This document shows positions 17,396 through 62,900 of a DNA stretch of 64,000 bases, in pieces. The translations under genes were made by a program, and so were the position numbers. The stretch spans positions 1 through 64,000 of IMG/VR virus record IMGVR_UViG_3300046011_011893, one strand, 5' to 3'. The notes beneath the pieces were generated by a model, which had not been told where the DNA came from, did no database searches, and was given only the letters and a program-made list of their open reading frames with translations. Each line of letters starts with the position of its first letter. Within the stretch, counting starts at the first letter, position 1. The stretch comes from a virus.

Positions 17396-17442
17396 AGAAT
17401 TTCCCGTAACTTTAACCTACAGGGGTTTTGAAAAAAAATGTT

Positions 17443-18396: not shown

Positions 18397-19175
18397 TAGA
18401 TAAAAATGTAAACATTATTAAGGATCCAAAAATTAAACGTATTGTAGAATATAGTGCGGATAATAAACAAATTAATGTTTTGGATCAACGATTCTATAGA
18501 CGCAACGAAGAGTATTACCCTTCTGTTTCCTCTATTTTAAATTATTTTCCTAAAAACCAATTCTTCCACTCATGGCTTAAAGATGTAGGACATAATAGTG
18601 ATATTATTGCCTCTAGAGCTGCTGCTGAAGGTACTCAAGTACATAACGCAGTAGAAGCATTTTTAAATGGAGAGGAAATTAAATGGATTGATGAATTTGG
18701 AAGTGCTATTTATTCACTTGATGTTTGGAAAATGATTCTTAAATTCTCTGAATTTTGGAATACACATAAACCTGAGCTTATAGCTACTGAATACCACTTA
18801 TTTTCAGACAACCATAAGTATGCTGGTACAGCCGACTTAATTGTTAAATTAAAAGGTAAAGTGTGGTTACTGGATGTTAAAACATCAAATTCACTCCATA
18901 CATCATACGATTTACAGTTAGCTTCCTATGCTAAAGCATGGAATGAAACACATGACACACCAATTGAGGAAACAGGTATTTTATGGTTGAAAGCATCTAC
19001 TAGGGGTGAAGGTAAAGGTGATGCAATTCAAGGTAAAGGATGGCAATTAAAAACAATAGGTGATATTGATCGTAATTTTGAAATGTTTCTTAAAATATAC
19101 GACATATATAAACTAGAGAACCCTGACTCTAAACCCATGACTGAGCTATTGCCCACCTCAGTAAAGCTATCTTAA
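18393..19175 (+). CDS. PD-(D/E)XK nuclease (RecB/Cas4-like exonuclease)
   Basis: A 260-residue protein with the core of the PD-(D/E)XK superfamily: AAAEGTQVHNAVEAFL (residues ~71-86), AGTADLIVKL with the metal-binding Asp, WLLDVKTS as the D-x-K motif, and a downstream LQLASYAKAW helix carrying the Gln/Tyr of RecB-like enzymes. It probably degrades or processes DNA ends in replication or recombination. It is coupled to the primase by an ATGA overlap. The exact T4 counterpart is unclear. Confidence 0.82.
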   Translation: MIDKNVNIIKDPKIKRIVEYSADNKQINVLDQRFYRRNEEYYPSVSSILNYFPKNQFFHSWLKDVGHNSDIIASRAAAEGTQVHNAVEAFLNGEEIKWIDEFGSAIYSLDVWKMILKFSEFWNTHKPELIATEYHLFSDNHKYAGTADLIVKLKGKVWLLDVKTSNSLHTSYDLQLASYAKAWNETHDTPIEETGILWLKASTRGEGKGDAIQGKGWQLKTIGDIDRNFEMFLKIYDIYKLENPDSKPMTELLPTSVKLS

Positions 19176-19177
19176 CA

Positions 19178-19185
19178 TATTTATA
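19178..19185 (+). promoter_or_regulatory. TATTTATA late-promoter-like box
   Basis: Exact TATTTATA directly follows the nuclease stop. The next recognisable gene starts 118 bases downstream and a terminator intervenes, so the box may drive a short RNA. Confidence 0.45.
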
Positions 19186-19189
19186 CATG

Positions 19190-19286
19190 AAACTAAAAAT
19201 TTCAAAAATACTGCTACAGACATATTATAATACAAGTATGCATAACGCGCTAGCGGGGACATTATGTCTCTGCTTTTTTATTTTTT
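19190..19286 (+). ncRNA. Candidate short RNA or terminated leader
   Basis: Between the TATTTATA box and the terminator at 19252-19286 lie about 60 bases without a convincing gene. A 33-codon frame starting at ATG 19187 runs into the terminator and has no recognisable features. Transcription from the box would give a roughly 100-base RNA, or an attenuated leader for the beta-barrel gene. CGCTAGCG (19248-19255) is self-complementary, overlaps the base of the terminator stem, and could form an alternative pairing. Confidence 0.3.
19252..19286 (+). terminator. Rho-independent terminator before the beta-barrel gene
   Basis: The stem AGCGGGGACA/TGTCTCTGCT (two G-U pairs, loop 19262-19264) is followed by a T-rich run. 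It lies only 17 bases before the ATG at 19303, so it acts either as an attenuator for that gene or as the end of a short RNA. Confidence 0.7.
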
Positions 19287-19302
19287 AACCAAAAAAACAA
19301 TT

Positions 19303-19839
19303 ATGAAAAAACAAGTAAAATTCGTTGTGACCGCATTATCATTAATGCTAGTGTCGTTTACAACAAAAGCACAGTTTAAAAAAGCAGAAAAATTTGCTGA
19401 AGGAACAGTGTCTTACTTAAAAGCAACTGGTACTGATGGACAGTACCTTCTCAATCCAGCCGCTGGATATTTTTTAACTGATAAATTTGCCGTAGGTGTT
19501 TCTGGTGAATTTAGTAAAAACCCAACCACCAAAGTAAATGGTGTTGGTGCTTTTGGAAGATGTTACGTATTAAGTGTTGGAAGTAAATTTCACGTTTACT
19601 CTCAATTAAGTTTGTCAAGCACTACTACTAAAGCTGGCAATAACGAAACGTCAGTTAAAAACGCAAACGTAGGTCTTGGCGCTAACTACTTTGTATCTAA
19701 AAACTTAGCCCTTAGTACATCATTGGCTAGTTTGATTGACTACACAGATGTTGGTTCTACATCTACATTTTCAATTGGATTTACAGGTGTTAATAATCAA
19801 TTGAACGCACCTAAATTTGGAATTTTATATCGATTCTAA
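19303..19839 (+). CDS. Exported outer-membrane beta-barrel-like protein
   Basis: A 178-residue protein. Residues 1-23 form a Sec signal peptide: Lys-rich start, hydrophobic core VVTALSLMLVSF, cleavage likely after TKA. The mature part shows alternating beta strands (YLLNPAAGYFLTDKFAVGVSGEF, read in segments) and ends in YRF, a C-terminal aromatic as used for beta-barrel insertion. It resembles small host outer-membrane porin-like proteins of Bacteroidetes. I chose ATG 19303 because an upstream TTG-type extension destroys the signal. Possible roles are superinfection exclusion or surface alteration; both are inference. A terminator lies immediately upstream, and another immediately downstream at 19861. 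Confidence 0.75.
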   Translation: MKKQVKFVVTALSLMLVSFTTKAQFKKAEKFAEGTVSYLKATGTDGQYLLNPAAGYFLTDKFAVGVSGEFSKNPTTKVNGVGAFGRCYVLSVGSKFHVYSQLSLSSTTTKAGNNETSVKNANVGLGANYFVSKNLALSTSLASLIDYTDVGSTSTFSIGFTGVNNQLNAPKFGILYRF

Positions 19840-28183: not shown

Positions 28184-28660
28184 ATGAATATATTTTATAT
28201 TAACGCTGATCCAATTGTTGCTGCACAAGAGCTTTGCGACGATCATGTTCGCAAAATGCAAATTGAATCAGCTCAAATGTTATGTACTGCCCATTGGGCT
28301 GTTGGTGGTGAAGCACCTTACAAACGTGCTCACTTCAACCATCCATCAACTAAATGGACACGTGAATCAATTCAACATTATCGTTGGCTTGTAAAACACG
28401 GTCTTGAGGTGTGTTATGAATTTAATAAACGTTATGGCAAACGTCATAAAACACAAGATGTAATTGAATGGTGTCGTGATAATGAACCTAATATTCCCGA
28501 TGCTGGTTTTACTCCACCACCACAAGCAATGCCTGAAGAATATAAAAATGAAGATACAATTGAGGCCTATAAAACTTATTATATTCAAGATAAAGTAAAA
28601 ATTAAAGGATTAAACTGGAACAAATTAAACAATAAACCAATATGGATAAAAGAATCGTAA
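28184..28660 (+). CDS. Predicted pyrimidine-dimer DNA glycosylase family protein
   Basis: A 158-residue protein. NIFYINADPIVAAQELCDDH at the start, the HVRKMQIESAQMLCTAHW helix, a NHPSTKWTRES motif, and a C-terminal AMPEEYKNEDTIEAYKTYY segment fit a phage-encoded group related to pyrimidine dimer DNA glycosylase/endonuclease V-like proteins. It would cut damaged DNA. The match is to the pattern I remember from marine T4-like phages, so the activity is not certain. It overlaps the following flavoprotein gene by 19 bases. Confidence 0.65.
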   Translation: MNIFYINADPIVAAQELCDDHVRKMQIESAQMLCTAHWAVGGEAPYKRAHFNHPSTKWTRESIQHYRWLVKHGLEVCYEFNKRYGKRHKTQDVIEWCRDNEPNIPDAGFTPPPQAMPEEYKNEDTIEAYKTYYIQDKVKIKGLNWNKLNNKPIWIKES

Positions 28661-30027
28661 TTGTAGGAGCAGGAGTTGCTGGTATTAACGCAGCAACTAA
28701 ATTAGTTGATAATGGCTATCCTGGTGAATTAATCACTATTATAGACAAAGGTAACGACCCTATTAATCGTTTGCCTGAGGAAGTAATGACAGGCATGTTA
28801 GGTGCTGGTGGTTGGTCTGATGGTAAATTAACTTACCATACAGCAATTGGAGGCCAATTAAACAAGTATTGTGGTGATGAAAAGGCAATGGAACTAATGG
28901 ATCAAGTTATTAGTAACTTTAGACGTTTTCATCCTAAACCAGAAGAAATATTCATGTCTGATCCACAAGAGGAACCTGAATTTATTAAACCATATTTTGG
29001 TTTGAGAATGTTTCCTGTATGGCACATTGGAAGTAATTTCCTTCACGAGATTGCTAAAGCATGGTATCAATATTTGTTAGATAAGGGTGTAAAATTTATG
29101 TGGACTACTGAAGTAACAGATATTAGCTTTAAAGACAATTATGTTGAATATTCTCAACCAAAACAAGAATATGTTAAATTTATTAACTATGATACTCTTA
29201 TATTTGCAGTAGGTAAATCAGGTATTGACTTTGCTCAAAAACTATCTGATGAATATTCGTTTCCTACTGAACCTAAATCAGTACAAATTGGTGTTCGATT
29301 TGAAGCACCACAAAAATATTTCCAAAAATTAATTGATGTATCATATGATTTCAAATTATATCAGAAATTTGATAATGTATCTCTCCGTAGCTTTTGTACT
29401 AATAACAATGCGGCTTACGTTGCTGTGGAGGAAACTTATGGCGACGTCAGCTACAACGGCCACGCTAAAAAAGGAGAACAATTCCGAAATGATATGACCA
29501 ATTTTGGTATCCTAATGGAAATTAAGGGTATTGAAGATCCATTTAAATGGTCACGTGATGTAGTACAAAAATGTCAAGATTTTATTGATAAAGATAGTGA
29601 ATGGAAGGATGATGGAGACAAAGCCGGATTATATTATTCACCAAGTCGAAAACCATCTTTAACATCTGAAGGACAACCAATTAAATGTTCTGTATTATCC
29701 TCTCATACTATTATTGGAGTTCAATTAAACCAAATAATGGGAGAATATGGAAATTATATAATGAACTTTATTGATAATATGAATAAAGTATTTGAATTTG
29801 GTGACGATTGGGGTATGTATATTCCTGAAGTAAAATATTTGTCTCCTGAACCACTAGTTAATTATCACGATTTATCATTAGTGAATTTTAATAATGTACA
29901 CTTTGTAGGCGATGCATTATCAGCTCGTGGTATTACAGTTGCAGGTGCACAAGGTATTTATGTAGCTGAAAAATTGATTCAACACAGTCATCTTGTAGAA
30001 TTAACACAAGTTTTGGAAACAGAATAA
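28642..30027 (+). CDS. FAD-dependent oxidoreductase
   Basis: A 461-residue protein with an N-terminal Rossmann dinucleotide motif GAGVAG (residues 9-14) and an acidic residue ending beta-2 (IIDKG). LGAGGWSDGKLTYHTAIGG (residues ~53-71) and the C-terminal VHFVGDALSARGITVAGAQG complete an FAD-binding pattern like the uncharacterised COG2509-type dehydrogenases. Its substrate is unknown. Such an enzyme is unusual in a phage head/repair block, and the 19-base overlap with the glycosylase-like gene suggests coupled expression. No membrane segment. Confidence 0.75.
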   Translation: MDKRIVIVGAGVAGINAATKLVDNGYPGELITIIDKGNDPINRLPEEVMTGMLGAGGWSDGKLTYHTAIGGQLNKYCGDEKAMELMDQVISNFRRFHPKPEEIFMSDPQEEPEFIKPYFGLRMFPVWHIGSNFLHEIAKAWYQYLLDKGVKFMWTTEVTDISFKDNYVEYSQPKQEYVKFINYDTLIFAVGKSGIDFAQKLSDEYSFPTEPKSVQIGVRFEAPQKYFQKLIDVSYDFKLYQKFDNVSLRSFCTNNNAAYVAVEETYGDVSYNGHAKKGEQFRNDMTNFGILMEIKGIEDPFKWSRDVVQKCQDFIDKDSEWKDDGDKAGLYYSPSRKPSLTSEGQPIKCSVLSSHTIIGVQLNQIMGEYGNYIMNFIDNMNKVFEFGDDWGMYIPEVKYLSPEPLVNYHDLSLVNFNNVHFVGDALSARGITVAGAQGIYVAEKLIQHSHLVELTQVLETE

Positions 30028-45743: not shown

Positions 45744-47642
45744 ATGAGCTGTAACGTTGTTAGCCCCTACAATATAGTATCAATTGATCCTCAAAATTCA
45801 TATATAATTGAGGTATCAACACCAGGACCACAAGGTCCTCCTGGTCCATCAGGTTCAATGGGAGATACTGGTTCTTTTGCTACTACAGGATCAAATGTAT
45901 TTAAAGGTAATCAAGTAATATCTGGTAGTGTAACAGTATCAGGAAGTGTTCTTATAAGTGGATCTAATACTTTTACAAATGTTGGTCCTGCTATATTTTC
46001 AGGTAGTGTAAATATATTTTCAGGAAATTTAACTTTAATTTCTGGCAGTTTTATAGCAGGAGGTAATAGTAGTTTTACAGGTTCATTATTTGGAACAGCT
46101 TCATTTGCTGATAATGCAGAAAATGCAGTTACAGCTTCTTATGCCCTTAATTTTAATCCAGGAGCAACAGCATCGTATGCTGAAGATGCAGGAACTTCTA
46201 GTTTTCAAAGCAATATTCAATTTGCTACAAGTCACATACCATTTTTTGATTCAGAAAATAGTATGTCTTCAAGTGCTGCTCGTCAGTGGTTAGATACTAG
46301 TATTGTTATTAACAGAGAATTTGGTACTGGTCTTAATCCAGAAGCACTATTTGTATTCCAACCAAATACATCATCAATTAATGTAGCTACATTTGAAAGT
46401 AATGTAAATAATTATTCTCAAATTAATGTTAGAAATGAAAGTGCTGGAAATAATGCTTCTACAGATATAGTAGCTACAGCAAATAATGGGGATGAATTTG
46501 ATAACTATATTAATATGGGTATCAATAGTAGTACCTATACTGGTTTTCTTGGAGGTCCAAATGATGGTTACTTATTTAATATAGGATCTAATCTTCATAT
46601 TGGTAATGCTTCTTCAAATGGACCTGGTTATGTGTCCCATGTAGGGTTTTTTGTTGGTGGAGATAATGTTGACACTTATACCAAATTAATTTTAAGAAGT
46701 AATAACCAACATGCTTTAACAGGCTCATTAAAAATACTTAATGATTTATGGGTTGTTGGAGCAATTACAGGTTCTATTTCAGGAAGTGGTGTTGGATATT
46801 TTTCAGGATCATTTGCTGGTGACGGAAGTCAATTAATTAATATTCCTGCCTCAAGTATAGTTGGATTAAATTTATCTCAAATATCAAGTGGTAGTGCTAC
46901 TGCCTCTATTTCTCCAACTAATGGATTTGTTGTAAATACAAATACTACAATATCTGGTTCTACAATTGTAAGAAATAATTTTACAGCAGGACATTTACTA
47001 ACAAACCAACATGCCTTTACAGGTAGTGTTAATATAACAGGTTCTTTATCTGTAAATGGTGTTTCATTTGAAGCTCAAACAGGTGGATATTTAGCTATTT
47101 GGAGATACACATCAAGCTTTACCACAAACATAGACCCAGGAAATGGATATTTTAAATTAAATAATTCTTGGCCTTTAGCTCCTACTGTTGCTGCGTTTGA
47201 TGACTTTGCTTATGATCCTAATGTTTTATTTTCAAGTTATTTAGATTCATTAGGCGCAGGTACTATAATTAAACTCGTAAGTTTAAGTAGTCCTTCAACA
47301 TATAAAATTTTACAAGTAACATCAACTATTCCTTATCAAACAGGATATGAAGCATACGCAGTAACACAAATTGCTTCTTCAGGACCTGATCCAAATGATG
47401 GAGATCAATTTGCATTTATACCTGTAGGTTCTCCAGGTGCTGGTTTTGATGCAATAAATAATGCTGCTCCAGGTCGTGTAATTGTTTCTGATGGCTCTAC
47501 AAATGCAGCTACCGCTTCAACACAACTATTAATAACTGAAAGTGTTGTAAGATTTGCAACTCAATCATTCAATCCAACAGGTTCAATAGAAGCAGGAAGT
47601 ATATGGTTTACTTCGTCTTCTTTTTATGTGGGGTTAGAATAG
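45744..47642 (+). CDS. Tail fibre with collagen-like segment and SGS/GTAS repeats
   Basis: A 632-residue protein. Residues ~30-47 are a short collagen-like run (GPQGPPGPSGSMGDTGS, five to six Gly-X-Y triplets). Residues ~60-155 contain SGSV and GTASFADNAENAVTASYA repeats shared with 49300-51147, and the VSGSNTFTNVGPAIFSGSV unit is nearly identical there. The rest is beta-rich with a C-terminal domain ending FTSSSFYVGL. A trimeric fibre is the likely role. Proline in the Gly-X-Y run would be a possible hydroxylation target of the downstream oxygenases (inference). Confidence 0.72.
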   Translation: MSCNVVSPYNIVSIDPQNSYIIEVSTPGPQGPPGPSGSMGDTGSFATTGSNVFKGNQVISGSVTVSGSVLISGSNTFTNVGPAIFSGSVNIFSGNLTLISGSFIAGGNSSFTGSLFGTASFADNAENAVTASYALNFNPGATASYAEDAGTSSFQSNIQFATSHIPFFDSENSMSSSAARQWLDTSIVINREFGTGLNPEALFVFQPNTSSINVATFESNVNNYSQINVRNESAGNNASTDIVATANNGDEFDNYINMGINSSTYTGFLGGPNDGYLFNIGSNLHIGNASSNGPGYVSHVGFFVGGDNVDTYTKLILRSNNQHALTGSLKILNDLWVVGAITGSISGSGVGYFSGSFAGDGSQLINIPASSIVGLNLSQISSGSATASISPTNGFVVNTNTTISGSTIVRNNFTAGHLLTNQHAFTGSVNITGSLSVNGVSFEAQTGGYLAIWRYTSSFTTNIDPGNGYFKLNNSWPLAPTVAAFDDFAYDPNVLFSSYLDSLGAGTIIKLVSLSSPSTYKILQVTSTIPYQTGYEAYAVTQIASSGPDPNDGDQFAFIPVGSPGAGFDAINNAAPGRVIVSDGSTNAATASTQLLITESVVRFATQSFNPTGSIEAGSIWFTSSSFYVGLE

Positions 47643-51175: not shown

Positions 51176-54100
51176 ATGTCATGGTCTACAGGTGGTAATC
51201 TAATTACAACTAGGCAAAGTTTAGGGGGAGCAGGTACACAAAATGCTGGTTTAGCTGTTGGTGGATCAACAGGAGGGTCTTTTGTTACAAACGTTACAGA
51301 AGAATATAATGGAACTTCCTGGTCATCAGGAGGAAATTTAATTACCGCTAGACAATATATAGGAGTTACTGGTACTCAAAATTCGGCTCTTGGTGTTAGT
51401 GGTTGGCCTGCTCCTTTTTCTCCATTTTTCACATGCACAGAAGAATATGATGGAATTTCTAACGTATGGACAGCTGGTGGAGCTATTATATCTGCTCACG
51501 TTGCTGGAGGAACTACTGGCCAGCAAAATTTAGCTTTATACTTTGGAGGCCAAACACCAGCTAACGTAACATGTACAGAAGAATACAATGGTACTTCGTG
51601 GTCAGCAGGTGGAGCATTAATTACAGGTAGACAACAATTTTTAGGAGCAGCAGGATCTCAAAACTCAGCTTTAGGAACAGGAGGACAAACCAGCGTAGCA
51701 GTAGGAAATACTGAAGAATACGATGGTACTTCGTGGGCATCAGGAGGAGCTTTAATTAATAGTAGAATGGCTGGTGCCGCTTCTGGTACACAAAATAGTG
51801 CTGTAGCTTTTTCAGGTACAATTGCTGGAGGTAGCCAGTTCTTTGCATTTACAGAAACATATAATGGTACTAGCTGGTCATCCGGTCCTGCTATGATTCA
51901 ACCTAGATATCTTCCAGGGGGAGGAAGTGAATGTGCTACATCAACCTGTACATTCGCAGCAGGAGGACTTAGAGCCCCTGGAATTAGGTTAAACAATACA
52001 GAAGAATATTCAGCAGCAGCAGCATCACCAACACCATCACCAACACCTACCTTAACCCCAACCCCAACTAGAACTCAAACACCTAGTGTAACACCTACAC
52101 CTAGTATAACTGTTACACCAACTATTACACCAACTAGAACTATTACTCCTTCAAGTTTACCTGCTTCTGTATACACAGTAACAATTGAAGAAGTTGGTGG
52201 TAATGTTGTTTGGTCAGGTACTGGTAACTTTAATATAACTGAATTATCTTGTGTTTCAAATACTTCAACAGGCCCAGGATATAGTTCAATTTCAGGTCAG
52301 TGGGTGATTGGCCCAGGAGAATTTCCAGGAAATCTTTATTGGGCTTCAACATTAACTCCTGTAAATAGTTTTGGAAATTCAAATGCTGGTGCATCATCTG
52401 CTACAGGTACTACAGCTGGTATTTTATGTGGCCCAAATGGGCAATCACTTTTTCTTCCTACAACATATACTAGCAATACTCCTACTAGTGCAACTGCAAC
52501 TTATAATAGTACAACAATTGCTGGGTTAGGTATACAAGCTGGAACATATACATGGACTTGGGGATCAACAAAGGTTAACTGTTTGAGAATGTTGATTAGT
52601 TCTTCTCCTACACCTAGCCCATCAAGGACTCCATCTGCTACACCTAGTGCTACACCAACAAATACTCCAACTCCAACTGTTACTCCTTCTATAACTTCTA
52701 CACCATCAATTACTCCAACACCATCTATAACTGCAACACCTTCAGTTACACCAACACAGACTGCTACTCCAAGTATTACTCCAACTCCAAGTATCACTGC
52801 AACACCAAGTATTACTCCAACCGCTACTATTACTCCGTCACCAACTAGAACAACTACACCTTCAATTACTCCAACCCCTAGTATTACTGCAACACCAAGT
52901 ATTACACCTACTCCTTCTATTACTCCAACACGAACAATTACTCCATCAATTACTTCTACACCTTCAATTACTCCAACCCCTAGTATTACACCTACAAGTA
53001 CAGTTACTCCGTCTGTTACTGTAACACCAAGTATAACACCTACTTCTACAATTACTCCGTCTGTTACTATAACACCAAGTGTAACTGTAACTCCAAGTAT
53101 CACTCCTACAAGAACTATTACTCCAAGTGTAACAGTAACTCCTAGTGTAACAGTTACTCCTTCAGTTACTGCAACTGTAACTCCTAGTGTAACTATAACT
53201 CCAACTGTTACTGTAACACCTAGTGTTACTATAACGCCTTCAATTACACCAACTAGAACAATTACCCCATCTGTAACAATCACACCATCTGTAACAGTAA
53301 CCCCTTCAGTTACAGCTACAATCACTCCATCAGTAACTGTAACACCATCTGTAACAATCACCCCATCAGTAACTGTAACACCATCAATAACTGCTACTCC
53401 AAGTATTACTCCTACAGCTACAATTACCCCATCAGTAACAATTACTCCATCTCCAACAATTACTGCTACTCCTTCTATTACACCTACAAGTACAATTACT
53501 CCAAGTGTAACAATAACACCTAGTATTACTCCTTCTGTAACAGTAACTGTAACTCCGAGTGTGACTGTAACACCTAGTGTTACTACAACTATAACACCGT
53601 CTGTAACCGTTACTCCTTCAATTACACCGTCTGTAACAGTAACAGTAACACCTTCAGTAACAGTAACACCAAGTATTACTCCAACAAGAACAATTACCCC
53701 TTCAATTACTGCAACACCAACAATTACTCCAACAGCAACTGTTACTCCATCTGTAACAATTACTCCAAGTATTACTTCAACACCTAGTATTACTCCTACA
53801 AATACAGTAACACCGTCTGTTACTGTTACTCCATCTGTAACTGTAACTCCAAGTATTACTCCAACGGCTACTGTAACACCTAGTGTAACAATTACACCTA
53901 CTACAACTGTAACACCTTCAGTTACTATAACGCCTTCTATAACCCCAACAGTTACAATTACTCCTTCAGTAACAATTACACCTACAAGAACGATAACACC
54001 AAGTGTAACCATTACTCCATCTATTACTCCAACAACTACAGTAACACCATCTCAAACTGTAACACCTACTGCAACTGTAACACCTAGTGTAACTGTTACT

Positions 54101-54892
54101 CCGTCTGTAACTGTAACTCCATCTGTTACTCCAACTGTAACACCTTCAGTTACCCCTTCAGTAACCGTAACTCCATCTGTTACAGCAACTGTTACTCCTT
54201 CAGTTACAGTTACTCCTAGTATAACTCCTTCTGTAACAGTAACCGTTACACCTTCATTAACAGTAACTCCATCAATTACACCAACTAGAACAATAACACC
54301 ATCTGTAACCGTAACACCAACTGTTACAGTTACTCCTTCAATAACAGCAACACCATCTATTACTCCATCAGTAACAGTAACTCCGTCTGTAACAGTAACA
54401 CCATCAATTACGCCTACTACAACTGTTACCCCATCAGTTACTGTAACTCCTTCTGTAACTATTACACCAACAGTTACTATAACTCCTAGTGTAACAGTTA
54501 CACCATCAATCACACCAACACAAACAGTAACGCCATCAATTACAGTAACCCCATCTGTAACAGTTACGCCGTCAATTACACCATCAGTAACAATTACTCC
54601 ATCAGTTACAGTTACTCCTAGTATAACTCCAACAGTAACTGTTACTCCATCTATTACTGTAACACCAAGTGTAACTGTAACACCATCTATTACACCAACT
54701 AGAACAATTACACCAAGTGTGACGGTTACTCCTACTGTAACTGTAACACCAAGTATTACACCTACAAGAACATTAACACCAACTGTTACACTTACTCCAA
54801 CAGTAACAGTAACACCAACTACTACAGTTACACCATCTATAACTCCAACCCCATCCCCAATATCAAAAACATATTACATTATAATAGACTAA
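51176..54892 (+). CDS. Kelch-like propeller head on a giant Thr/Pro stalk
   Basis: A 1238-residue protein. Residues ~1-275 carry about five kelch-like repeats ([20 protein letters not shown], each ~48 residues), likely a beta-propeller. A short Thr/Pro stretch, a ~130-residue beta domain ([17 protein letters not shown] ...), and then residues ~480-1225 of (Thr/Ser)-X repeats follow. It ends abruptly with [10 protein letters not shown], without the C-terminal globular domain seen in the 1612-residue relative. Architecture suggests a surface-binding fibre; sugar or receptor binding is inferred. Confidence 0.72.
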
Positions 54893-54914: not shown

Positions 54915-55190
54915 ATGGAATATTACACAGCAGTAAACACAGGATATGGGTTTATTACTCATGAAGACAATGAAAGATCATATATAGAAGAATTTCCTGG
55001 GCCGCTTTATATAACTGAAAATAACCAAATTTGGGCAGATAGAGTAGGAGCAATATCAAAAACTAAAGTTGAAGCACAAATTATTTGTGATGCTGCTATA
55101 GATGAAAGCATAATAGCATACCAAAATTGTATTTCTGGATCTCAACCAGGATTATGTGGACCTGTACCCACTTATATCATTCTTCCATAA
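54915..55190 (+). CDS. Small protein after the giant fibre
   Basis: A 91-residue protein (YYTAVNTGYGFITHEDNERS ... QNCISGSQPGLCGPVPTYIILP) with two Cys near the C-terminus. No family recognised. It may once have been a C-terminal domain of the fibre, since the fibre lacks one and the two genes are 22 bases apart, or it may be an accessory cap. Confidence 0.5.
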   Translation: MEYYTAVNTGYGFITHEDNERSYIEEFPGPLYITENNQIWADRVGAISKTKVEAQIICDAAIDESIIAYQNCISGSQPGLCGPVPTYIILP

Positions 55191-55247: not shown

Positions 55248-55946
55248 ATGTCTGAAACTAATCAACAACAAGATTTAACAGTTACTGATGATTTAAAAAA
55301 TATTCTTGCTGTTCTTAAACCACAGGATGCAACAGAGGTACTTCGCCTTAAAGAAGAATTAGCAGATAATTGGAATAAAAAACAAATATTTCGTACTGAA
55401 ACAGAAATGAGAGTTTCTGTTTTAAACGACATGAAATATCCTACTATAGCAGCTAAATATTGGCAATCCGTTAGAGAAATGGCAGCTCATTTTGATGCAT
55501 TGATGAATTTATCTTTTGATATGAGAAAAGCTGATGTTGAACGCTTAAGACTTGAGCGCAGAATGAAAGAAGTTGAATTAAAAGGTGATCAATTAGATAT
55601 TTTAGAGGCACAGATTGAACTTGACCAGAATTTGTATAATAAAGCCTGTATGGAACAAGTTGCTCACGATCGTGTTCGTGAAATTCAAACTTGGTCTAAA
55701 ATTAAATCTGAATTAAATGATGGCTCGTTTGATGATCAAAATGTGAATACACACCAAGCTGAAAGTTATGGAATACGATTTGAAAATAGAATTAAAACTC
55801 TTAAACCAGATAGTGAACCAAGTGAGGTAATCAATGCTGTAGGACTTCATCAAACTCTTCAAAAATTAAAAACTGAAGATAACAAAATATTAACTTTTAG
55901 TCAACTTAAACAACTACAAATAGATCAACAATCACAACAACAATAA
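55248..55946 (+). CDS. Helical protein of unknown function
   Basis: A 232-residue, charged and helical protein. Residues ~75-125 (MNLSFDMRKADVERLRLERRMKEVELKGDQ, in parts) have strong coiled-coil character, with Gln-rich ending QQSQQQ. It resembles phage scaffold or chaperone proteins in style only. It opens the modification cassette. Its upstream gap (55191-55247) has an A/T-rich TTTGTATATTAAATT stretch but no TATTTATA. Confidence 0.5.
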   Translation: MSETNQQQDLTVTDDLKNILAVLKPQDATEVLRLKEELADNWNKKQIFRTETEMRVSVLNDMKYPTIAAKYWQSVREMAAHFDALMNLSFDMRKADVERLRLERRMKEVELKGDQLDILEAQIELDQNLYNKACMEQVAHDRVREIQTWSKIKSELNDGSFDDQNVNTHQAESYGIRFENRIKTLKPDSEPSEVINAVGLHQTLQKLKTEDNKILTFSQLKQLQIDQQSQQQ

Positions 55947-55949
55947 GTT

Positions 55950-56531
55950 ATGTTTTTATATAGAAGAAAAAACGTTTTGTCTTCCGAACTATGTAAAGCT
56001 TTTATAGATGCTTTTGAAGCGTCAAATGAAAAAAGACCAGGAGTATTATATGGAAATAATGGAATTTTTTCGGCTGGTGGAAAAAAATCAACGGATATAA
56101 CCTTTAATCCTACTTATTTACAACATGAAATTTGGGGTCCTCTTTTAAAACAATTAATTCCTGTACTAGAAAAAGGACAAGTAGATTATTATAATAGAAA
56201 TTCATTAGCTTTTAGTAAATTAGATCCTTTTGAAATATCTCCTTTATTTAATATTCAAAAATATGAACCTGGTGAAGGATTTTATGACTGGCATTGCGAA
56301 AGAGCAAGTTTAAAATATACTAATAGGTTATTAGTTTGGATGGTATATCTAAACACAGTAATGGATCAAGGTGAAACTGAATTTTTTTATCAACACCATT
56401 TTGAGCTAGCCGAAGAAGGAAAATTGATTATATGGCCATCAGATTGGACCTACTTACATCGCGGAGTTCCTTCACCTACTGAGACTAAATATATTTTAAC
56501 TGGTTGGTTTACTCATATAAAAAATGATTAA
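55950..56531 (+). CDS. 2-oxoglutarate/Fe(II) oxygenase-like protein 1
   Basis: A 193-residue protein with the PKHD-like pattern NIQKYEPGEGFYDWHCER (H115, E117), LVWMVYLNTVMDQGETEFF, and a second His in TYLHRGVP (H170), then a KYILTGWF strand. HxE replaces the usual HxD, which is tolerated in some members. The family hydroxylates amino acids, often proline, using 2-oxoglutarate and iron. It is the first of five related genes here. Substrate unknown. Confidence 0.8.
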   Translation: MFLYRRKNVLSSELCKAFIDAFEASNEKRPGVLYGNNGIFSAGGKKSTDITFNPTYLQHEIWGPLLKQLIPVLEKGQVDYYNRNSLAFSKLDPFEISPLFNIQKYEPGEGFYDWHCERASLKYTNRLLVWMVYLNTVMDQGETEFFYQHHFELAEEGKLIIWPSDWTYLHRGVPSPTETKYILTGWFTHIKND

Positions 56532-56533
56532 TT

Positions 56534-57145
56534 ATGTTTTCATTAGTTCCTTATAATCATTTTACACCCAAATCTAATTGGTATGATTTTTATTATTATA
56601 AAAAGGTTTTTAATGATAAAATGATTACTGAATTGGAAAAGATGGTTTTTACTCATTATACTTTTTCTAAAGGTAGAACAGGTGCAGTTGAATTAGGTAC
56701 TGATACTGATTCTTATGAAACAAACAATAGAGATATTGCTTATATTAACACAGCTCCTCATTCTAAATGGTTATATGAATTATTATTTCCACTAGCATTA
56801 CAAGCTAATGAAAAACTATTTCATTTTGACATTGATATAGTAACAGACCCAATACACTATGTAATATACCCAGAAGATGGAGGGCATCTTGATTGGCATA
56901 TGGATATAGGAGCATATGGAGTCAATAGGAGAAAACTTGCCATGACTGTACAACTATCAGACCCATCAGAATATGATGGAGGTGAGTTTGAAATATGGTT
57001 TGGTGGAAAGGAACCAATAGTTGTACCAAGAGAAAAAGGTGACGTAATTGTATTTCCTTCTTTTTTAATGCATAGAGTAAAACCAATAACAAGAGGCCAA
57101 CGTAAATGTTTGGTTTTTTGGACAGGAGGTCGTCCCTTTAGATAA
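56534..57145 (+). CDS. 2-oxoglutarate/Fe(II) oxygenase (PKHD-type) 2
   Basis: A 203-residue protein with a complete facial triad and co-substrate Arg: GHLDWHMDIG (H122, D124), VIVFPSFLMHRVKPI (H180), and RGQRKCLVFW (R190). YDGGEFEIWF is the usual strand between them. This is a canonical prolyl hydroxylase-like layout, the most complete of the five. Likely cytoplasmic (no signal). Confidence 0.87.
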   Translation: MFSLVPYNHFTPKSNWYDFYYYKKVFNDKMITELEKMVFTHYTFSKGRTGAVELGTDTDSYETNNRDIAYINTAPHSKWLYELLFPLALQANEKLFHFDIDIVTDPIHYVIYPEDGGHLDWHMDIGAYGVNRRKLAMTVQLSDPSEYDGGEFEIWFGGKEPIVVPREKGDVIVFPSFLMHRVKPITRGQRKCLVFWTGGRPFR

Positions 57146-57154
57146 TATAAAATT

Positions 57155-57754
57155 ATGGAATTTAAAATATATGAACAATTATGGTTTGCAACTCCAATCT
57201 GGGAGTGCCCTGTTATTGGGATAGATAATGAAGAAATAAAAGACTACTGCTTACAAACTAAAGAAAAATTACCTGGTATTACTATTTCGAATAGAGGTGG
57301 ATGGCATAGTAATGAATTATTGCTTCCACTTGCTCCTTCACTTGAAACATTATTTAATGATATTAGTATTTTTTCAAATGATATTTGTTCTCGCCACACA
57401 GGAATGAAAGACTTAATAGTAGGCAATTTTTGGATTAATATCAATGGATATCATGATTATAATATAGCCCATGACCATCAAAAAAGCATACTATCAGGAG
57501 TATACTATGTAAGTGTACCAGATGATAATATGGGAGATATTGTATTTCATAGAGGAGATAATGCTGAATTTTTCCTAACTGGAGATATACAGCGAGAACT
57601 AACAATGTCTAATGCTTTAAGTTTTGCCAAACCACCTAAAGAATCAACATTCTATTTATTTCCTAGTTGGATTAAACATAGTGTAGAAAGAAATGAATCA
57701 CATAAAGAACGTATTTCAATAGCTTTTAATATTGTACCACAATCTAAAATTTAA
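57155..57754 (+). CDS. 2OG-Fe(II) oxygenase, TIGR02466 (Oxy_5) type 3
   Basis: A 199-residue protein. NIAHDHQKSILSGVYYVSVPDD (H106, H108), FYLFPSWIKHSVERN (H175), and ERISIAFNI (R186) match the TIGR02466/2OG-FeII_Oxy_5 pattern, where HxH replaces HxD. The N-terminal LWFATPIWECPV is also characteristic. Members are widespread in marine phages with unknown substrates. Confidence 0.83.
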   Translation: MEFKIYEQLWFATPIWECPVIGIDNEEIKDYCLQTKEKLPGITISNRGGWHSNELLLPLAPSLETLFNDISIFSNDICSRHTGMKDLIVGNFWININGYHDYNIAHDHQKSILSGVYYVSVPDDNMGDIVFHRGDNAEFFLTGDIQRELTMSNALSFAKPPKESTFYLFPSWIKHSVERNESHKERISIAFNIVPQSKI

Positions 57755-57757
57755 TTT

Positions 57758-57967
57758 ATGAAATTATTTAATCTTGGAGATGCTTCTCCATCAGCAAGAA
57801 TGACATTTTTATCAATTGGATTAGTTGTTTTTATTGGCAACTGGCTTACTGGTTTTGAAAATGTTAGTTGGGTGCTTTGGCTTCCACCAACGCTTCTACC
57901 ATTAGCTGCATTAACCGGAGTTTGTCCTTTTAAAATTATTTGGGAAAAACTAGGCTTTAAAAAGTAA
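57758..57967 (+). CDS. DUF2892-like membrane protein
   Basis: A 69-residue protein with two membrane segments (FLSIGLVVFIGNWL and LWLPPTLLPLAALTGVCPF), N-terminal NLGDASPSARMT and the C-terminal GVCPFKIIW of DUF2892 proteins. Known relatives include YgaP-type membrane domains. Its presence in an oxygenase cassette is unexplained. Confidence 0.6.
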   Translation: MKLFNLGDASPSARMTFLSIGLVVFIGNWLTGFENVSWVLWLPPTLLPLAALTGVCPFKIIWEKLGFKK

Positions 57968-57972
57968 AATTT

Positions 57973-59427
57973 ATGCACATTTGTATAGTAGGTTCTGGAA
58001 CTAGTAGTTGGTTAGTTGTAAACTACTATAAAGAACTTGCTTTTGTAGAAAAAATTACAGTAGTAGGTTCTCCTAAAATTCCACATATTGGAGTAGGAGA
58101 ATCTACTACATTATCATTACCAAAAGTACATTCTATGTTTAAAATTGACCATGCAGATTTTATAAAAGAATCCCATGCGGCAGTAAAATATGGAGTTTAC
58201 TATAAAAATTGGAGTAAAAAAGACTGGATTCACTTTTTTAAATCAAATGCACCACTAGAAAGATCAGGATTATCTTTAATAGAATATGCATTATTACTAG
58301 GCAATAAAGACCCAGAAACATTTATACATGATATTTACGGATCATTAATATGGGAAGAAGCAGTAGGTAAAAATAATGTATTTCCTGATAGTATTAAAGA
58401 AGCTATAAACATTGAACATCCTAATGCTTTTCATTTTGATGCCGCATGTTATATAGAATTTTTAAAAAAACAAGCCCTTACAAACCCAAAAGTAGAATTT
58501 ATATCAGATACTGTTGAACATGTTAACTTTGAGGACTATGATTATATTTCAAGTATAATATTAGAAAGTAAAAAAGAAATAAAAGCAGATTATTTCATAA
58601 ACACTACAGGACAAAACTTAAAAACAAAAAATGTATTCAATGAACAGTATGAAAGTTTAGGAAATACTTTATTAACAACTAAAGCGGTTGTTTATCCCCT
58701 TTATTACACTAATAAAAGAGAACAATTCCATCCTTACACTGTAGCTAAAACTATGAAACATGGGTGGAGATGGATTACACCAACATGGGAAAGAATAGGA
58801 ACAGGATATGCATTTTCAGATAATCATATTAGTGTAGATGAAGCTATAAATGAATTTATTACAGATATTGGTGATAAATCAATTATTCCAAATGTAGTTG
58901 ATTTTAGACCTAGAGTAAATAAACAAACATTTAAAATTAATAGCTGTTCAATTGGAATGGCTAATGGGTTTTTAGAGCCTTTAGATGCTCCTGGATTAGC
59001 CCTTACTAATACATGCATTGAAATATTAGAAAAAATATTGAATAAATATCATTTATCTTTAAAAAACAAAAGTATGCAATATGATAAAAGTTATATTCGT
59101 ACTCTTGTTAATGCTAACCAAAGTATTAAAAGAAATTATAAATTTTGGACTACTTTTATTTTAAATCAATATAAAACTTGTCATAGATTAGATACTTCGT
59201 TTTGGGTTGATCAAAAAGAAGTTAAATTTGAAGATTGGACATTAGCAATTAAAGATTTAAATGAATATTCTAATGAATGTGATATTATGATGCTAGCACA
59301 AACACTTGCTGCTAGAGATATACAATTTTCCACCCCATTACCAAAACATATAAAACCCCCTAAACTATCAGAATTTTTACCTCGTACACAACATCATTTA
59401 GATTACATAGAAAGCTTTCATAAATAA
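57973..59427 (+). CDS. Flavin-dependent halogenase-like protein
   Basis: A 484-residue protein of the tryptophan halogenase type. GSGTSSW (residues 7-13) and IGVGESTTL (39-47) are the FAD-binding motifs. AAVKYGVYYKNW carries Lys72 at the place of the catalytic lysine (K79 in PrnA). GWRWITPTWERIGTGYAFSD gives a modified WxWxIP motif (W265, W267, T269, P270). SIGMANGFLEPLDAPGLALT holds Glu335, matching the second catalytic residue region. Halogenation or another flavin reaction of an unknown substrate is expected. It needs a flavin reductase, not evident in the window. It lies among five oxygenase genes. Confidence 0.8.
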   Translation: MHICIVGSGTSSWLVVNYYKELAFVEKITVVGSPKIPHIGVGESTTLSLPKVHSMFKIDHADFIKESHAAVKYGVYYKNWSKKDWIHFFKSNAPLERSGLSLIEYALLLGNKDPETFIHDIYGSLIWEEAVGKNNVFPDSIKEAINIEHPNAFHFDAACYIEFLKKQALTNPKVEFISDTVEHVNFEDYDYISSIILESKKEIKADYFINTTGQNLKTKNVFNEQYESLGNTLLTTKAVVYPLYYTNKREQFHPYTVAKTMKHGWRWITPTWERIGTGYAFSDNHISVDEAINEFITDIGDKSIIPNVVDFRPRVNKQTFKINSCSIGMANGFLEPLDAPGLALTNTCIEILEKILNKYHLSLKNKSMQYDKSYIRTLVNANQSIKRNYKFWTTFILNQYKTCHRLDTSFWVDQKEVKFEDWTLAIKDLNEYSNECDIMMLAQTLAARDIQFSTPLPKHIKPPKLSEFLPRTQHHLDYIESFHK

Positions 59428-59434
59428 CTCTATT

Positions 59435-60082
59435 ATGGAAAAATCAAAAGTTTTTAGTTTATTTCCAACTCCTCTTTACGTATCAACATACGAAGGGGAT
59501 ACTACTGAAATAGTAAAGTATTTCGATAGTTGTGAAATGAATGATGGGCGAAATAGCCCATATGGTTGGATCTCAAAAAACAGCTACATTATAGATAATC
59601 CTATATGTAAACCTTTAGCAGATTTTTTTATGTTACATTTTAAAAAATTTGCAACTGAAATTATGAGATATAATTATAAAGATCTCGAGTTTGCTCAATC
59701 ATGGCTTACATATAAAATGCCGGGTCAATTTCACAAAGCACATACACACCCAAATACATTGCTTGCTGGGGTGTTTTATTATGATTTTGAACCAGGAGAT
59801 GCTGCTCTTTGTTTTAGTAAAGTAGTTGGATCTCAACATAGAACTTATATAGAACCATCACTATTACCAGATTATCAAGAATATGTTTATTCTCAAGAGG
59901 AAGTTTATTTTATGCCTCAACAAAATGATTTCATTATATTCCCCTCATATGTTACACATGGTGTGCCGCCTAATAAAACAAATAAAGTTAGAAAAGCACT
60001 AGGTGTTAATGCCTTAACTAAAGGCACACTTGGAGACCAAGAAACTATTTCAGAAATTATATTTGGACGTTATGCAAGTTAA
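59435..60082 (+). CDS. 2OG-Fe(II) oxygenase-like, TIGR02466 type 4
   Basis: A 215-residue protein. FHKAHTHPNTLLAGVFYYDF (H103, H105), DFIIFPSYVTHGVPPNKTNKVRKALGVNAL (H175, R186) and FPTPLYVSTY at the start fit the same Oxy_5 family as type 3. It is a close relative of the next gene, which overlaps it by 11 bases, so the pair looks like a tandem duplication. Confidence 0.82.
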   Translation: MEKSKVFSLFPTPLYVSTYEGDTTEIVKYFDSCEMNDGRNSPYGWISKNSYIIDNPICKPLADFFMLHFKKFATEIMRYNYKDLEFAQSWLTYKMPGQFHKAHTHPNTLLAGVFYYDFEPGDAALCFSKVVGSQHRTYIEPSLLPDYQEYVYSQEEVYFMPQQNDFIIFPSYVTHGVPPNKTNKVRKALGVNALTKGTLGDQETISEIIFGRYAS

Positions 60083-60722
60083 TAGTAAAATAATAGACAT
60101 ATTCCCAATACCTGTTTATACAGTAGAAATACCTGATGAATTATCACCTGTTATTGCTTTTTTTGATAAACAAGAGGTAGTTACAGATGATGCTGATCAG
60201 GCTAATTACGGATTTAGATCTAAAGATAGTTATATTTTAGATAAATCTGAATGTTATGATATAAGAAATTTTATTTTAGAAAATGTAAAAGCATATGCTG
60301 ATGTTATTGGATTTGATTATGATAAGTACAAATTTAGTCAATCATGGATATCAATAAAAATGCCTGGACAACAACATGTAATGCATACACATCCTAATAG
60401 TTTAATTTCAGGAGTATTTTATTATGGATCTGTAATTGAAAATACACCAGGTATAGAATTTCATAAAAGTATAATGGGTGTAAATGCTTCTTATATTCAA
60501 CCTAAAATTAAAGAAAAAATAGAATATTCAAGATATTCTTCACCTAAATTTACAATGAATATTACACCAGGTTTATTGGTATTATTTCCTTCTTATTTAG
60601 TGCATAATGTACCTGTAAATAAAGCTGAATTGCCTCGACATAGTTTAGCTTTTAATGTTGTTCCCATAATAGGATTTGGAGATGAAAGAAGTCTAACGGA
60701 ATTATTATTTAAAAAACAATAA
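60072..60722 (+). CDS. 2OG-Fe(II) oxygenase-like, TIGR02466 type 5
   Basis: A 216-residue protein. ATG 60072 is chosen (MQVNSKIIDIFPIPVYTVE); an upstream TTG at 60030 lies within the preceding gene and adds an unconserved tail. HVMHTHPNSLISGVFYYGS (H105, H107), LFPSYLVHNVPVNKAELPRHSLAFN supply the rest of the motif. KMPGQ before HxH is shared with the preceding protein, supporting duplication. Confidence 0.82.
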   Translation: MQVNSKIIDIFPIPVYTVEIPDELSPVIAFFDKQEVVTDDADQANYGFRSKDSYILDKSECYDIRNFILENVKAYADVIGFDYDKYKFSQSWISIKMPGQQHVMHTHPNSLISGVFYYGSVIENTPGIEFHKSIMGVNASYIQPKIKEKIEYSRYSSPKFTMNITPGLLVLFPSYLVHNVPVNKAELPRHSLAFNVVPIIGFGDERSLTELLFKKQ

Positions 60723-60725
60723 ATA

Positions 60726-61679
60726 ATGTCTGCAACCTATACTCCAAAATCAAAATCAATCATACAGCCTACACCAGCTGTATTACCTTCAAGTGAAAAA
60801 TATTTGATTTGGCACATTGAGGGAGGGCTAGGTAAAAATATTGCTGCTACTGCATTATGTAAAGATGTAAAAGAAACATATCCTGATCGTAAAATTATTT
60901 TGGTAGTTTCCTATCCAGAAGTATTTTTAAATAATCCATTTGCTGATAGAGTATATCATATATCAAATAGACCTTATTTTTATGATAATTACATTTATAA
61001 TAAAGATGTAATTATATTTAAACATGAACCTTATCATCAAACAGGTCACATTACTAAAAAGAAACATTTAATAGAAAATTGGTGTGATCTTTTAAACATA
61101 CCATATACAGAACAGCAACCACAAGTTTATGTAAATATGGTTCAAAAAGGAACTATTGGTTTATGGCGACGTAATAAACCAACAATGGTATTACAAACAA
61201 ATGGTGGTCCTTTAAATGGTCAAAAATATGGGTATAGTTGGTGTAGAGATATTCCTTTTGATATATCTTTAGAAATATTCAATAAATACTCAAAAGATTA
61301 TCACATATTTCAAATAACTAGACCAGATTCACAAAAAATACCTGGTGCTGAAATTATAGACCAGCCTATGACTAATATGGAATTGTTTGCTATTTTAGTA
61401 GAGTCACAAAAACGTATATTAATTGATTCATGTCTTCAACACGCTGCCGCATCATTTAAAATACCATCAACTGTATTGTGGATAGGTACTTCACCTAATG
61501 TATTTGGGTATAAAATTCATAACAATATTGTTGCTAATCCTCCAAAAGGTGGTACAAAGTTAGTCGATTCTTATTTATTTGATTATGCTTTTGACGGTAT
61601 TTTACATGAATGTCCTTACATAGATGTGAATGAAATGTTTGATATACCAAAGTTGCTTAACGATATAGATAAAAAATAG
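60726..61679 (+). CDS. GT9-like (heptosyltransferase-type) glycosyltransferase
   Basis: A 317-residue protein. YLIWHIEGGLGKNIAATALCKDVK (residues ~26-49) resembles the N-terminal Rossmann of GT-B glycosyltransferases. LIDSCLQHAAASFKIPSTVLWIGTSPNVFGY (~237-267) is like the sugar-nucleotide side of GT9 heptosyltransferases. Pro/Ser-rich residues 1-25 precede the domain. Expected to transfer a sugar to lipopolysaccharide, or to protein. In this place, virion fibre glycosylation is an attractive but unproven possibility. Confidence 0.72.
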   Translation: MSATYTPKSKSIIQPTPAVLPSSEKYLIWHIEGGLGKNIAATALCKDVKETYPDRKIILVVSYPEVFLNNPFADRVYHISNRPYFYDNYIYNKDVIIFKHEPYHQTGHITKKKHLIENWCDLLNIPYTEQQPQVYVNMVQKGTIGLWRRNKPTMVLQTNGGPLNGQKYGYSWCRDIPFDISLEIFNKYSKDYHIFQITRPDSQKIPGAEIIDQPMTNMELFAILVESQKRILIDSCLQHAAASFKIPSTVLWIGTSPNVFGYKIHNNIVANPPKGGTKLVDSYLFDYAFDGILHECPYIDVNEMFDIPKLLNDIDKK

Positions 61680-61727: not shown

Positions 61728-62900
61728 ATGGCTGATATTCCTGTATATGCTGGTAGTTCTTCGTTTTTTCCTGGGGATACTGCCTTTGGATTTTACGATT
61801 ACCAATACCAATTCCAAGTAGATGCTGACAAAGTTGTTACATTTGTTACACAACGTTTAGGATGGCCTATTGAAGTTGTTGAATTACAACCAGTACAAAT
61901 ATATACTGCTTTTGAAGAAGCTGTTACTGTTTATGGCAATGAAGTATACCAATTCCAAATTAGAGAGAACATGCTCTCTATGGAAGGAAACCCAACTGGT
62001 TCAGGACCATACAACCAGTTACTAATGTCTCCTTCACTTGGTGGTGTTGTTCGTATATCTGAAAACTATGGTGAAGAAGCTGGTGTTGGTGGTAATGTAA
62101 CATGGTATAGTGGTGCTATTAGATTACATGCCCTTACACAATCATATGATTTAAATTTATGGGCACAACAATCAGCATCGATTGGTCCTAATGATTATAT
62201 TGAAGTAAAAAGAATATTCTTCGAAGCACCTCCTGCTGCTATGAGATACTTTGATCCATATGTTGGTATAGGATATAGCTACGAAGGATTACTTAATAGC
62301 TTTGGATTTGGTGCTTATTCACCTGCTATTACATTCTTATTAATGCCGTTGTTCTTTGACTTACAAAGAATTCAAGCAATTGAATTAAACGACCAAATAA
62401 GAAAAGCAGCATTTTCGTTTGAAATTATAAACAACCAACTTAAGATATTCCCTATTCCTTTAATTGATTACAATTTATGGATTCAATATGTTAAAGGAAG
62501 TGAAAGAGATAGTGTTGTAGGAGGCAGAACAGCAAGTGGATCTGCAGCTACAAATTTGATTACAAACCCATCAAATGTACCCTATTGTAATCCAAATTAT
62601 AACTACATTAATTCAGTGGGTAAAATGTGGATTTACCAATATACCTTAGCACTATGTCGTGAGATATTAGGATATGTACGTGGCAAATACACGCAGGTAC
62701 CTATTCCAGGAGCTGAAGTTACTTTGAACCAACAAGATTTACTAACAGATTCTAGAGCAATGAAAGAATCATTAATACTTCAATTAAGAGAAGCCTTAGC
62801 AGAATCTGGAAGACAAACACAACTTGAAAAACAAGCAGCCAATGCTGAAAATTTAAATAAAACATTAGCTAATGTTCCTATGGGAATTTATATATTTTAA
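61728..62900 (+). CDS. Neck protein, gp13-like
   Basis: A 390-residue protein. VVTFVTQRLGWPIEVVELQ near the start and the C-terminal WIYQYTLALCREILGYVRGKYTQVPIPGAEVTLNQQDLL ... LREALAE resemble the gp13/neck-type proteins of T4-like phages, which close the head after packaging. T4 gp13 is 309 aa; the extra length is in the Tyr-rich middle. Assignment to gp13 rather than a related connector protein is tentative. Confidence 0.6.
   Translation: MADIPVYAGSSSFFPGDTAFGFYDYQYQFQVDADKVVTFVTQRLGWPIEVVELQPVQIYTAFEEAVTVYGNEVYQFQIRENMLSMEGNPTGSGPYNQLLMSPSLGGVVRISENYGEEAGVGGNVTWYSGAIRLHALTQSYDLNLWAQQSASIGPNDYIEVKRIFFEAPPAAMRYFDPYVGIGYSYEGLLNSFGFGAYSPAITFLLMPLFFDLQRIQAIELNDQIRKAAFSFEIINNQLKIFPIPLIDYNLWIQYVKGSERDSVVGGRTASGSAATNLITNPSNVPYCNPNYNYINSVGKMWIYQYTLALCREILGYVRGKYTQVPIPGAEVTLNQQDLLTDSRAMKESLILQLREALAESGRQTQLEKQAANAENLNKTLANVPMGIYIF

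Follow-up and report, generated by a model that had tools for sequence, protein, structure and literature searches.

The cassette at positions 55950-61679 of the window (the whole 64,000-nucleotide stretch analysed here, from an uncultured T4-like phage) contains five genes for 2OG-Fe(II) oxygenase-like proteins (OX1 to OX5), one for a halogenase (HAL), one for a small membrane protein (TM69), and one for a glycosyltransferase with a predicted GT9 fold, and its constant partner is a fibre gene encoding kelch-like repeats. This enzyme set travels with the kelch-repeat fibre and not with Thr/Pro fibres, and therefore it probably decorates adhesion fibres. We give a probability of about 0.5 to the reading in which these genes are a late modification island, associated with the fibre, whose enzymes act on the kelch-repeat adhesin or on its glycan; we infer both the chemistry and the substrate. 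A broader proposal is made only tentatively, at well under even odds: that marine and freshwater phages share a widespread, undescribed system in which a dedicated island oxidizes, glycosylates, sulfates, and sometimes halogenates kelch-repeat fibres, whose assembly would be the dedicated task of two further proteins (o91 and p232).

All cassette genes are intact and lie on the + strand, with intergenic gaps of -11 to 9 bp, and the gene inventory and coordinates proposed in the initial annotation were confirmed, the glycosyltransferase being assigned to GT9 by predicted fold. The fibre gene upstream (51176-54892, + strand; phrog_27227) codes for ~280 aa of N-terminal kelch-like repeats (five units of ~44-48 aa, with GG/Y/W), followed by a Thr/Pro/Ser-rich array of ~778 residues (461-1238; 37% T, 19% P, 14% S). 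The Thr/Pro array formerly described right before the cassette is present, but in a gene that opens with kelch-like repeats. These repeats contain only 2-4% proline; a single Trp is conserved in the unit, and a Tyr is frequent. The Pfam Kelch_1 model recognizes them in one relative (L014, 24.2 bits versus a cut-off of 20.1), the window copy scoring below the cut-off. The same fibre family is common to the fibres of cassette-bearing relatives. Two further + strand genes, o91 (54915-55190) and p232 (55248-55946), lie beyond the limits first drawn for the cassette and are members of it, the full unit being kelch-like fibre, o91, p232, OX1-OX5, and GT9. The first encodes a small conserved protein with no Pfam or PHROG match, possibly a fibre-assembly helper. 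The second, used as island marker, encodes a conserved helical protein with a weak phrog_1409 match in some relatives only, and its predicted structure, a helical hairpin, gave no Foldseek match below 0.001. Neither p232 nor the kelch-like fibre was found by tblastn in sequenced phage isolates. The island lies within the structural gene cluster (fibre, neck, and sheath genes) and is bounded downstream by a gp13-like neck protein gene (61728-62900, + strand; assigned via T4-like gene order). The adjacency of glycosyltransferase and gp13 is peculiar to the window phage.

Profile searches matched OX1 (55950-56531; phrog_61) and OX2 (56534-57145) to PF13640 (38 bits, 3e-9, and 54 bits, 4e-14, respectively), and OX3 (57155-57754), OX4 (59435-60082), and OX5 (60072-60722) to PF13759 (2OG-FeII_Oxy_5; 81.5, 59.7, and 65.3 bits; 6e-23, 4e-16, and 7e-18), the curated cut-off being 27 bits for both families. 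OX5 starts at an ATG at 60072, overlapping OX4 by 11 bp. The Fe/2OG ligands HxE...H...K of OX1 (H115/E117/H170/K180) and HxD...H...R of OX2 (H122/D124/H180/R190) are conserved among homologues. In OX3-OX5, whose activity is putative, the canonical HxD/E metal motif is replaced by HxH; OX3 and OX4 have HxH...H...R at the metal/2OG positions, conserved in OX3, and HxH also occurs in the solved relatives 3bvc/2rg4. The nearest solved relative of OX2 is the PKHD-type hydroxylase PiuC (profile match 3e-11), the similarity being a short, domain-level match only.

Between OX3 and OX4 lie TM69 (57758-57967) and HAL (57973-59427). TM69 is a 69-aa membrane protein, as annotated, but its match to YgaP-like_TM, which we take to be the Pfam family earlier named DUF2892, was below the cut-off (E=0.12). 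It accompanies the halogenase in relatives (L074, L075, L287, and L351). The halogenase is an optional insert, found in 3/29 dereplicated cassette loci. HAL is a flavin-dependent, tryptophan-type halogenase (PF04820, 235 bits versus a cut-off of 21; 1.5e-69) with whole-length homology to VirX1 (6qgm; 3.5e-53) and PrnA/RebH-type enzymes, with which it shares the FAD motif and the aligned catalytic lysine (K72, invariant across four homologues and placed opposite the Lys of VirX1 in the alignment). It differs from them in having WRWITP for WxWxIP and EPLDAPG for EPLES, the position of the catalytic Glu of tryptophan-type halogenases being occupied by Asp338 in all four homologues aligned, and it is about 25-31% identical to its cyanophage homologues. 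A Glu-to-Asp change was reported to retain low activity (PMC8407142).

The glycosyltransferase (60726-61679) had no sequence match in Pfam or PDB. Its predicted model (pLDDT 77) has a GT9 fold according to Foldseek, with matches to 3tov (GT9; 1e-9, TM 0.56), WaaF (1psw; 6.5e-7), and TibC (4rap; 8e-7). The predicted fold is thus held in common with GT9 heptosyltransferases (WaaF, WaaC, and TibC), whereas identity to them is 11-15%. TibC heptosylates Ser of a bacterial adhesin (PMC4358343). Assignment as a TibC-type BAHT was ruled out, since the four-Cys iron finger is missing and the GT9 alignment contains no conserved Cys cluster.

In 29 dereplicated cassette loci, the kelch-like fibre, o91, and GT9 were each present in 28 and OX3 in all 29. 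Loci retrieved with p232 or glycosyltransferase queries had the kelch-like fibre upstream in 33/38 cases and an oxygenase downstream in 48/53. When GT9 loci, retrieved regardless of kelch, were split by presence of p232, kelch repeats occurred in 7/7 with p232 versus 1/26 without it (Fisher 2e-6), and oxygenases behaved likewise. Diverged loci of marine origin show this linkage too, some of them from SAR11 single-cell genomes and others from Flavobacteriaceae bins. Since cassette order and active-site residues are kept down to ~40% identity, the gene set is not a chance assembly.

Behind GT9, relatives often carry a sulfotransferase, an APS kinase (match 3e-16), and other glycan-modifying genes (GT2/GT4, FkbM methyltransferase, and carbamoyltransferase) before the tail genes. 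The best solved match of the sulfotransferase profile was TPST1, a protein-tyrosine sulfotransferase (1.9e-8). Sulfotransferase and APS kinase are absent from the contig of the window phage, a 66 kb fragment. The GT9 and sulfotransferase pair persists behind other fibre genes without p232 and the oxygenases. Acidic-Tyr frequency in the repeats averaged 0.65-0.67 with the sulfotransferase versus 0.43-0.45 without it, a difference that was not significant (p=0.23, 0.48). A small nucleotidyltransferase of relatives best matched NMN adenylyltransferase, and its assignment as heptose adenylyltransferase or ATP sulfurylase was unsupported. Literature searches on a sulfotransferase with a phage tail fibre, or on kelch with an oxygenase, turned up nothing relevant.

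Based on the modification-island reading, the enzymes would act during virion assembly on the kelch-repeat fibre tip or on a glycan it carries. The oxygenases would place hydroxyl groups on side chains or on carbons of sugars, and the GT9 enzyme would attach a sugar, possibly heptose from an ADP-sugar as WaaF and TibC do. In relatives, the sulfotransferase would use PAPS as sulfate donor; the halogenase, where present, would halogenate an aromatic ring (the repeat Trp/Tyr), with o91 and p232 maybe serving as fibre chaperones or adaptors. The gain could be a fibre whose binding varies, or a virion that is shielded. It counts against this reading that synteny attests linkage and not substrate, and that T4-like fibre-neck regions are cargo hot spots; glycosyltransferase and carbamoyl/sulfo genes also suit remodelling of host-surface glycans equally.

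That the enzymes instead remodel host surface glycans in infection (receptor masking or superinfection exclusion) and not virion proteins is a possibility we rate at perhaps one chance in a handful. The GT9, GT2/GT4, FkbM methyltransferase, carbamoyltransferase, and sulfotransferase of relatives are typical glycan modifiers, and the island of cyanophage S-SSM7 includes ADP-heptose genes termed LPS genes (Sullivan et al., 2010). The position among fibre, neck, and sheath genes and the tight linkage with one fibre family and o91/p232 argue against it. Somewhat more doubtful is a role in auxiliary metabolism, by which the oxygenases would deplete 2-oxoglutarate or produce a diffusible halogenated or hydroxylated metabolite. 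Published readings of cyanophage 2OG-Fe(II) genes, including NtcA/2OG and DNA repair (PMC3037559), and the in vitro halogenation of small aromatics by VirX1 (PMC8407142) are in line with this role, which leaves unexplained both the constant fibre-gene linkage and five diverged oxygenases, each with a conserved active site. Unlikely, too, is a cargo hot spot where unrelated, independent enzymes gather between fibre and neck genes: the sporadic halogenase, the variable gene content past GT9, and the unconserved gp13 adjacency among relatives would fit it, but the conserved OX1-OX5 order and the p232/o91/kelch core, kept to ~40% identity, would not.

The initial annotation had proposed that the Thr/Pro array or a collagen-like Gly-X-Y run is hydroxylated and glycosylated in a decorated stalk. 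Its idea of a fibre-associated modification cassette was strengthened by synteny in dozens of independent phages; its Thr/Pro or collagen target did not survive and is now improbable. The window fibre gene with its array does lie three genes upstream, OX2 resembles PiuC, and four tested cassette contigs had Thr/Pro arrays. However, arrays occur in few cassette relatives: a Thr/Pro, Ser/Gly/Thr, or Gly-X-Y array was absent in 14/29 dereplicated loci (flanks of up to 10 kb), and most cassette contigs, many with the full cassette, had none. Conversely, p232 was found in 0/40 whole contigs picked for Thr/Pro arrays. Co-occurrence in both directions thus rejected the array as constant partner, contrary to the expectation that oxygenase and glycosyltransferase genes appear only with Thr/Pro fibres, and the kelch repeats are themselves poor in Pro. 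The collagen-like run (within 45744-47642) consists of six triplets only, below the Pfam Collagen cut-off, and classing its fibre as collagen-like was rejected. Hypermodification of DNA bases, along the lines of the T-even pathways or of kinetoplastid base J, is very improbable: a 2OG oxygenase with a glycosyltransferase is a generally known DNA-modification pairing, but these oxygenases match PF13640/PF13759 and not TET/JBP models, the glycosyltransferase is GT9-fold by prediction, and the linkage is with fibres.

Auxiliary metabolism is the usual heading, without an assigned substrate, for phage-encoded 2OG oxygenases, sulfotransferases, and "LPS" genes, as it is for the halogenases, of which VirX1 is in biotechnological use. 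For many phage genomes, the linkage suggests a substrate that can be tested, namely the kelch-repeat fibre encoded next door; if this is true, phages would chemically diversify their receptor-binding fibre by oxidation, sulfation, and halogenation. Glycosylated mycobacteriophage virions (Freeman et al., 2023, cited in PMC12619734) set a precedent for glycosylation of phage virions, there on capsid and tail tube. So far as is known, other glycosyltransferases act in that case, and no oxygenases or sulfotransferase. This kind of island is already known, since isolated cyanophages have comparable ones, which are usually read as auxiliary metabolism. In Syn9, a relative of Syn10 (the source of VirX1), halogenases and several 2OG-Fe(II) oxygenases come after the tail fibre and fibre-assembly genes, and homologues of OX1 (2.5e-35) and OX3 (7.7e-39) are among these oxygenases; it differs in having two halogenases and proteins at most about 30% identical, and p232, o91, the kelch-like fibre, and GT9 were not detected in its region. 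The S-SSM7 island differs in its carbamoyltransferases and ADP-heptose synthesis genes, with p232 and the kelch-like fibre not detected in it, and resembles the window in combining oxygenases, a halogenase, and a weak GT9-like gene directly upstream of gp13/gp14.

The window comes from a 66,318-bp IMG/VR virus contig of a T4-like phage, in which the large terminase, portal, prohead and capsid genes are followed by the fibres, a gp13/gp14-like neck and, beyond the window end, the tail sheath (T4-type names assigned from gene order). The cassette (55950-61679, plus strand) sits between fibre and neck genes and contains five 2OG-Fe(II) oxygenase-like genes (OX1-OX5) and genes for a 69-aa membrane protein (TM69), a flavin-dependent halogenase and a glycosyltransferase, with intergenic spacing of -11 to 9 bp. 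Every gene that the initial annotation had placed there was recovered. A 461-aa FAD/NAD(P)-type flavoprotein encoded at 28642-30027 might supply the halogenase with flavin or have no connection to it.

Relatives were collected using as queries the glycosyltransferase (67 loci), p232, a conserved helical protein encoded at 55248-55946 (577 loci, 80 kept), the kelch-like fibre (76 loci kept) and OX3 (80 loci kept). The recurring gene order was kelch-like fibre, o91 (a small conserved protein, 54915-55190), p232, OX1, OX2, OX3, (TM69, halogenase), OX4, OX5 and GT9. Further kelch genes frequently come next, along with a sulfotransferase (PF13469), an APS kinase (PF01583), a small nucleotidyltransferase, DUF2061 and tail sheath. 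Among loci fetched by p232 or the glycosyltransferase, 33/38 had kelch genes upstream and 48/53 had an oxygenase downstream. After dereplication by shared 4-mers of p232 or the glycosyltransferase, kelch genes were present in all 7 glycosyltransferase loci that had p232 but in just 1 of the 26 that lacked it (Fisher 2e-6), and at least two oxygenases in the same proportions. Given the 4-mer dereplication, the limited flanks, the many fragmentary contigs and the common ancestry of phages, p-values are indicative only. The 29 dereplicated cassette loci, sampled with flanks of up to 10 kb and many on fragmentary contigs, all carried OX3; kelch, o91 and GT9 were each present in 28, a sulfotransferase in 16 and the halogenase in three. 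Gene linkage, domain identity and conserved active sites are established for these genes, which most likely form a late modification island associated with the fibre. We infer that its enzymes act on the fibre or its glycan, as we do the reaction order, the donor sugar and the roles of o91 and p232; the main rival explanation is that they remodel host glycans. Loci with p232, kelch and oxygenases occurred in SAR11 SAGs (L273, L276) and Flavobacteriaceae bins (L272, L275), which suggests these groups as hosts, and the window protein at 19264-19839, which has a Bacteroidota-style signal peptide and resembles an outer-membrane beta-barrel (MKKQVKFVVTALSLMLVSFTTKAQF...), would be in keeping with a Flavobacteria-like host.

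In the product of the fibre gene preceding o91 (51176-54892), kelch-like repeats take up the first 280 or so residues and a Thr/Pro/Ser array comes after them. Units of about 44 aa make up the repeats of relatives (approximate consensus drawn from 647 of them), and "kelch-like" is the safe name because the Pfam Kelch_1 cut-off was passed by one relative and failed by the window copy. The cassette had been proposed to hydroxylate or glycosylate Thr/Pro repeats or a collagen-like Gly-X-Y run. The latter amounts to six triplets in total, and kelch-like fibres contain 2-4% proline. p232 was found in 0/40 whole contigs picked for Thr/Pro arrays (positive controls 12/12 by the same search). Within flanks of up to 10 kb, 3/29 cassette loci had a Thr/Pro array and 14/29 carried no Thr/Pro, Ser/Gly/Thr or Gly-X-Y array. 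Among the cassette contigs examined at full length, dense Thr/Pro arrays were confined to the window's contig, G016, G060 and G061. The original observation was right and its target wrong as stated; once corrected, the finding has wider reach and can be tested. Some 36 kb away from the cassette lie a second giant Thr/Pro array protein (10957-15795; 1612 aa, 36% T, 16% P) and, beside it, a smaller array protein (15850-16590); their neighbours include no gene recognisable as encoding a modifying enzyme.

Sulfotransferase genes were present in 48/53 glycosyltransferase loci without p232, indicating that GT9 and sulfation pair up behind different fibres. The typical order there was fibre, another glycosyltransferase or methyltransferase, sulfotransferase, GT9, APS kinase, nucleotidyltransferase, DUF2061 and sheath; in L018, L021, L023 and L035 the conserved module from sulfotransferase to DUF2061, with neither oxygenases nor p232, lies behind other fibres and ahead of the tail sheath. 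The sulfotransferase profile matched human TPST1 best (1.9e-8), and the APS kinase profile matched true APS kinases (3e-16). Comparison of acidic-Tyr in the repeats of loci with and without sulfotransferase, as a test of tyrosine sulfation, gave a trend that was not significant. The sulfotransferase search that was applied to the relatives detected none in the window.

The putative metal and 2OG ligands of the oxygenases are kept across relatives, except for one position in OX5 of L014. OX1 has HxE and OX2, whose nearest solved relative is PiuC, HxD; OX3, OX4 and OX5 carry HxH instead in window and relatives alike, as do their solved but uncharacterised relatives, possibly forming a three-histidine iron site. 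A homologue of VirX1 and PrnA, the halogenase is likely active, although Asp replaces the catalytic Glu and WRWITP replaces WxWxIP. The glycosyltransferase model (pLDDT 77) matched GT9 enzymes including WaaF and TibC. TibC adds heptose to serine residues of an adhesin from bacteria (PMC4358343), but the window's glycosyltransferase lacks the TibC iron finger. The structure predicted for p232, a helical hairpin, matched no known fold.

In the literature searched, neither the tie of such an island to one fibre family with o91 and p232 nor the sulfation branch was found. Comparable cyanophage genes were reported by Sullivan et al. (2010), who proposed 2OG signalling or DNA repair and did not decide whether the LPS genes have a function or serve as "stuffer" (PMC3037559). 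Two cyanophage genes are annotated as DNA endonuclease V: S-SSM7 SSSM7_124 (L431:6435-6989) matches the PF13640 2OG-Fe(II) oxygenase family (5e-9), and Syn9 gp51 (L430:15919-16437) does so weakly, below the cut-off; judging from these matches, the PHROG 2297/274 names look wrong for these genes. In L016, near the cassette, a carbamoyltransferase (17321-19024) stands immediately before a further 2OG-like oxygenase (19024-19737), as in S-SSM7. This kind of island is already known, since Syn9 and S-SSM7 carry comparable ones: in Syn9, two halogenases and oxygenase homologues of OX1 and OX3 come after tail fibre and assembly genes, and in S-SSM7, oxygenases, a halogenase, carbamoyltransferases and ADP-heptose genes stand immediately ahead of gp13.
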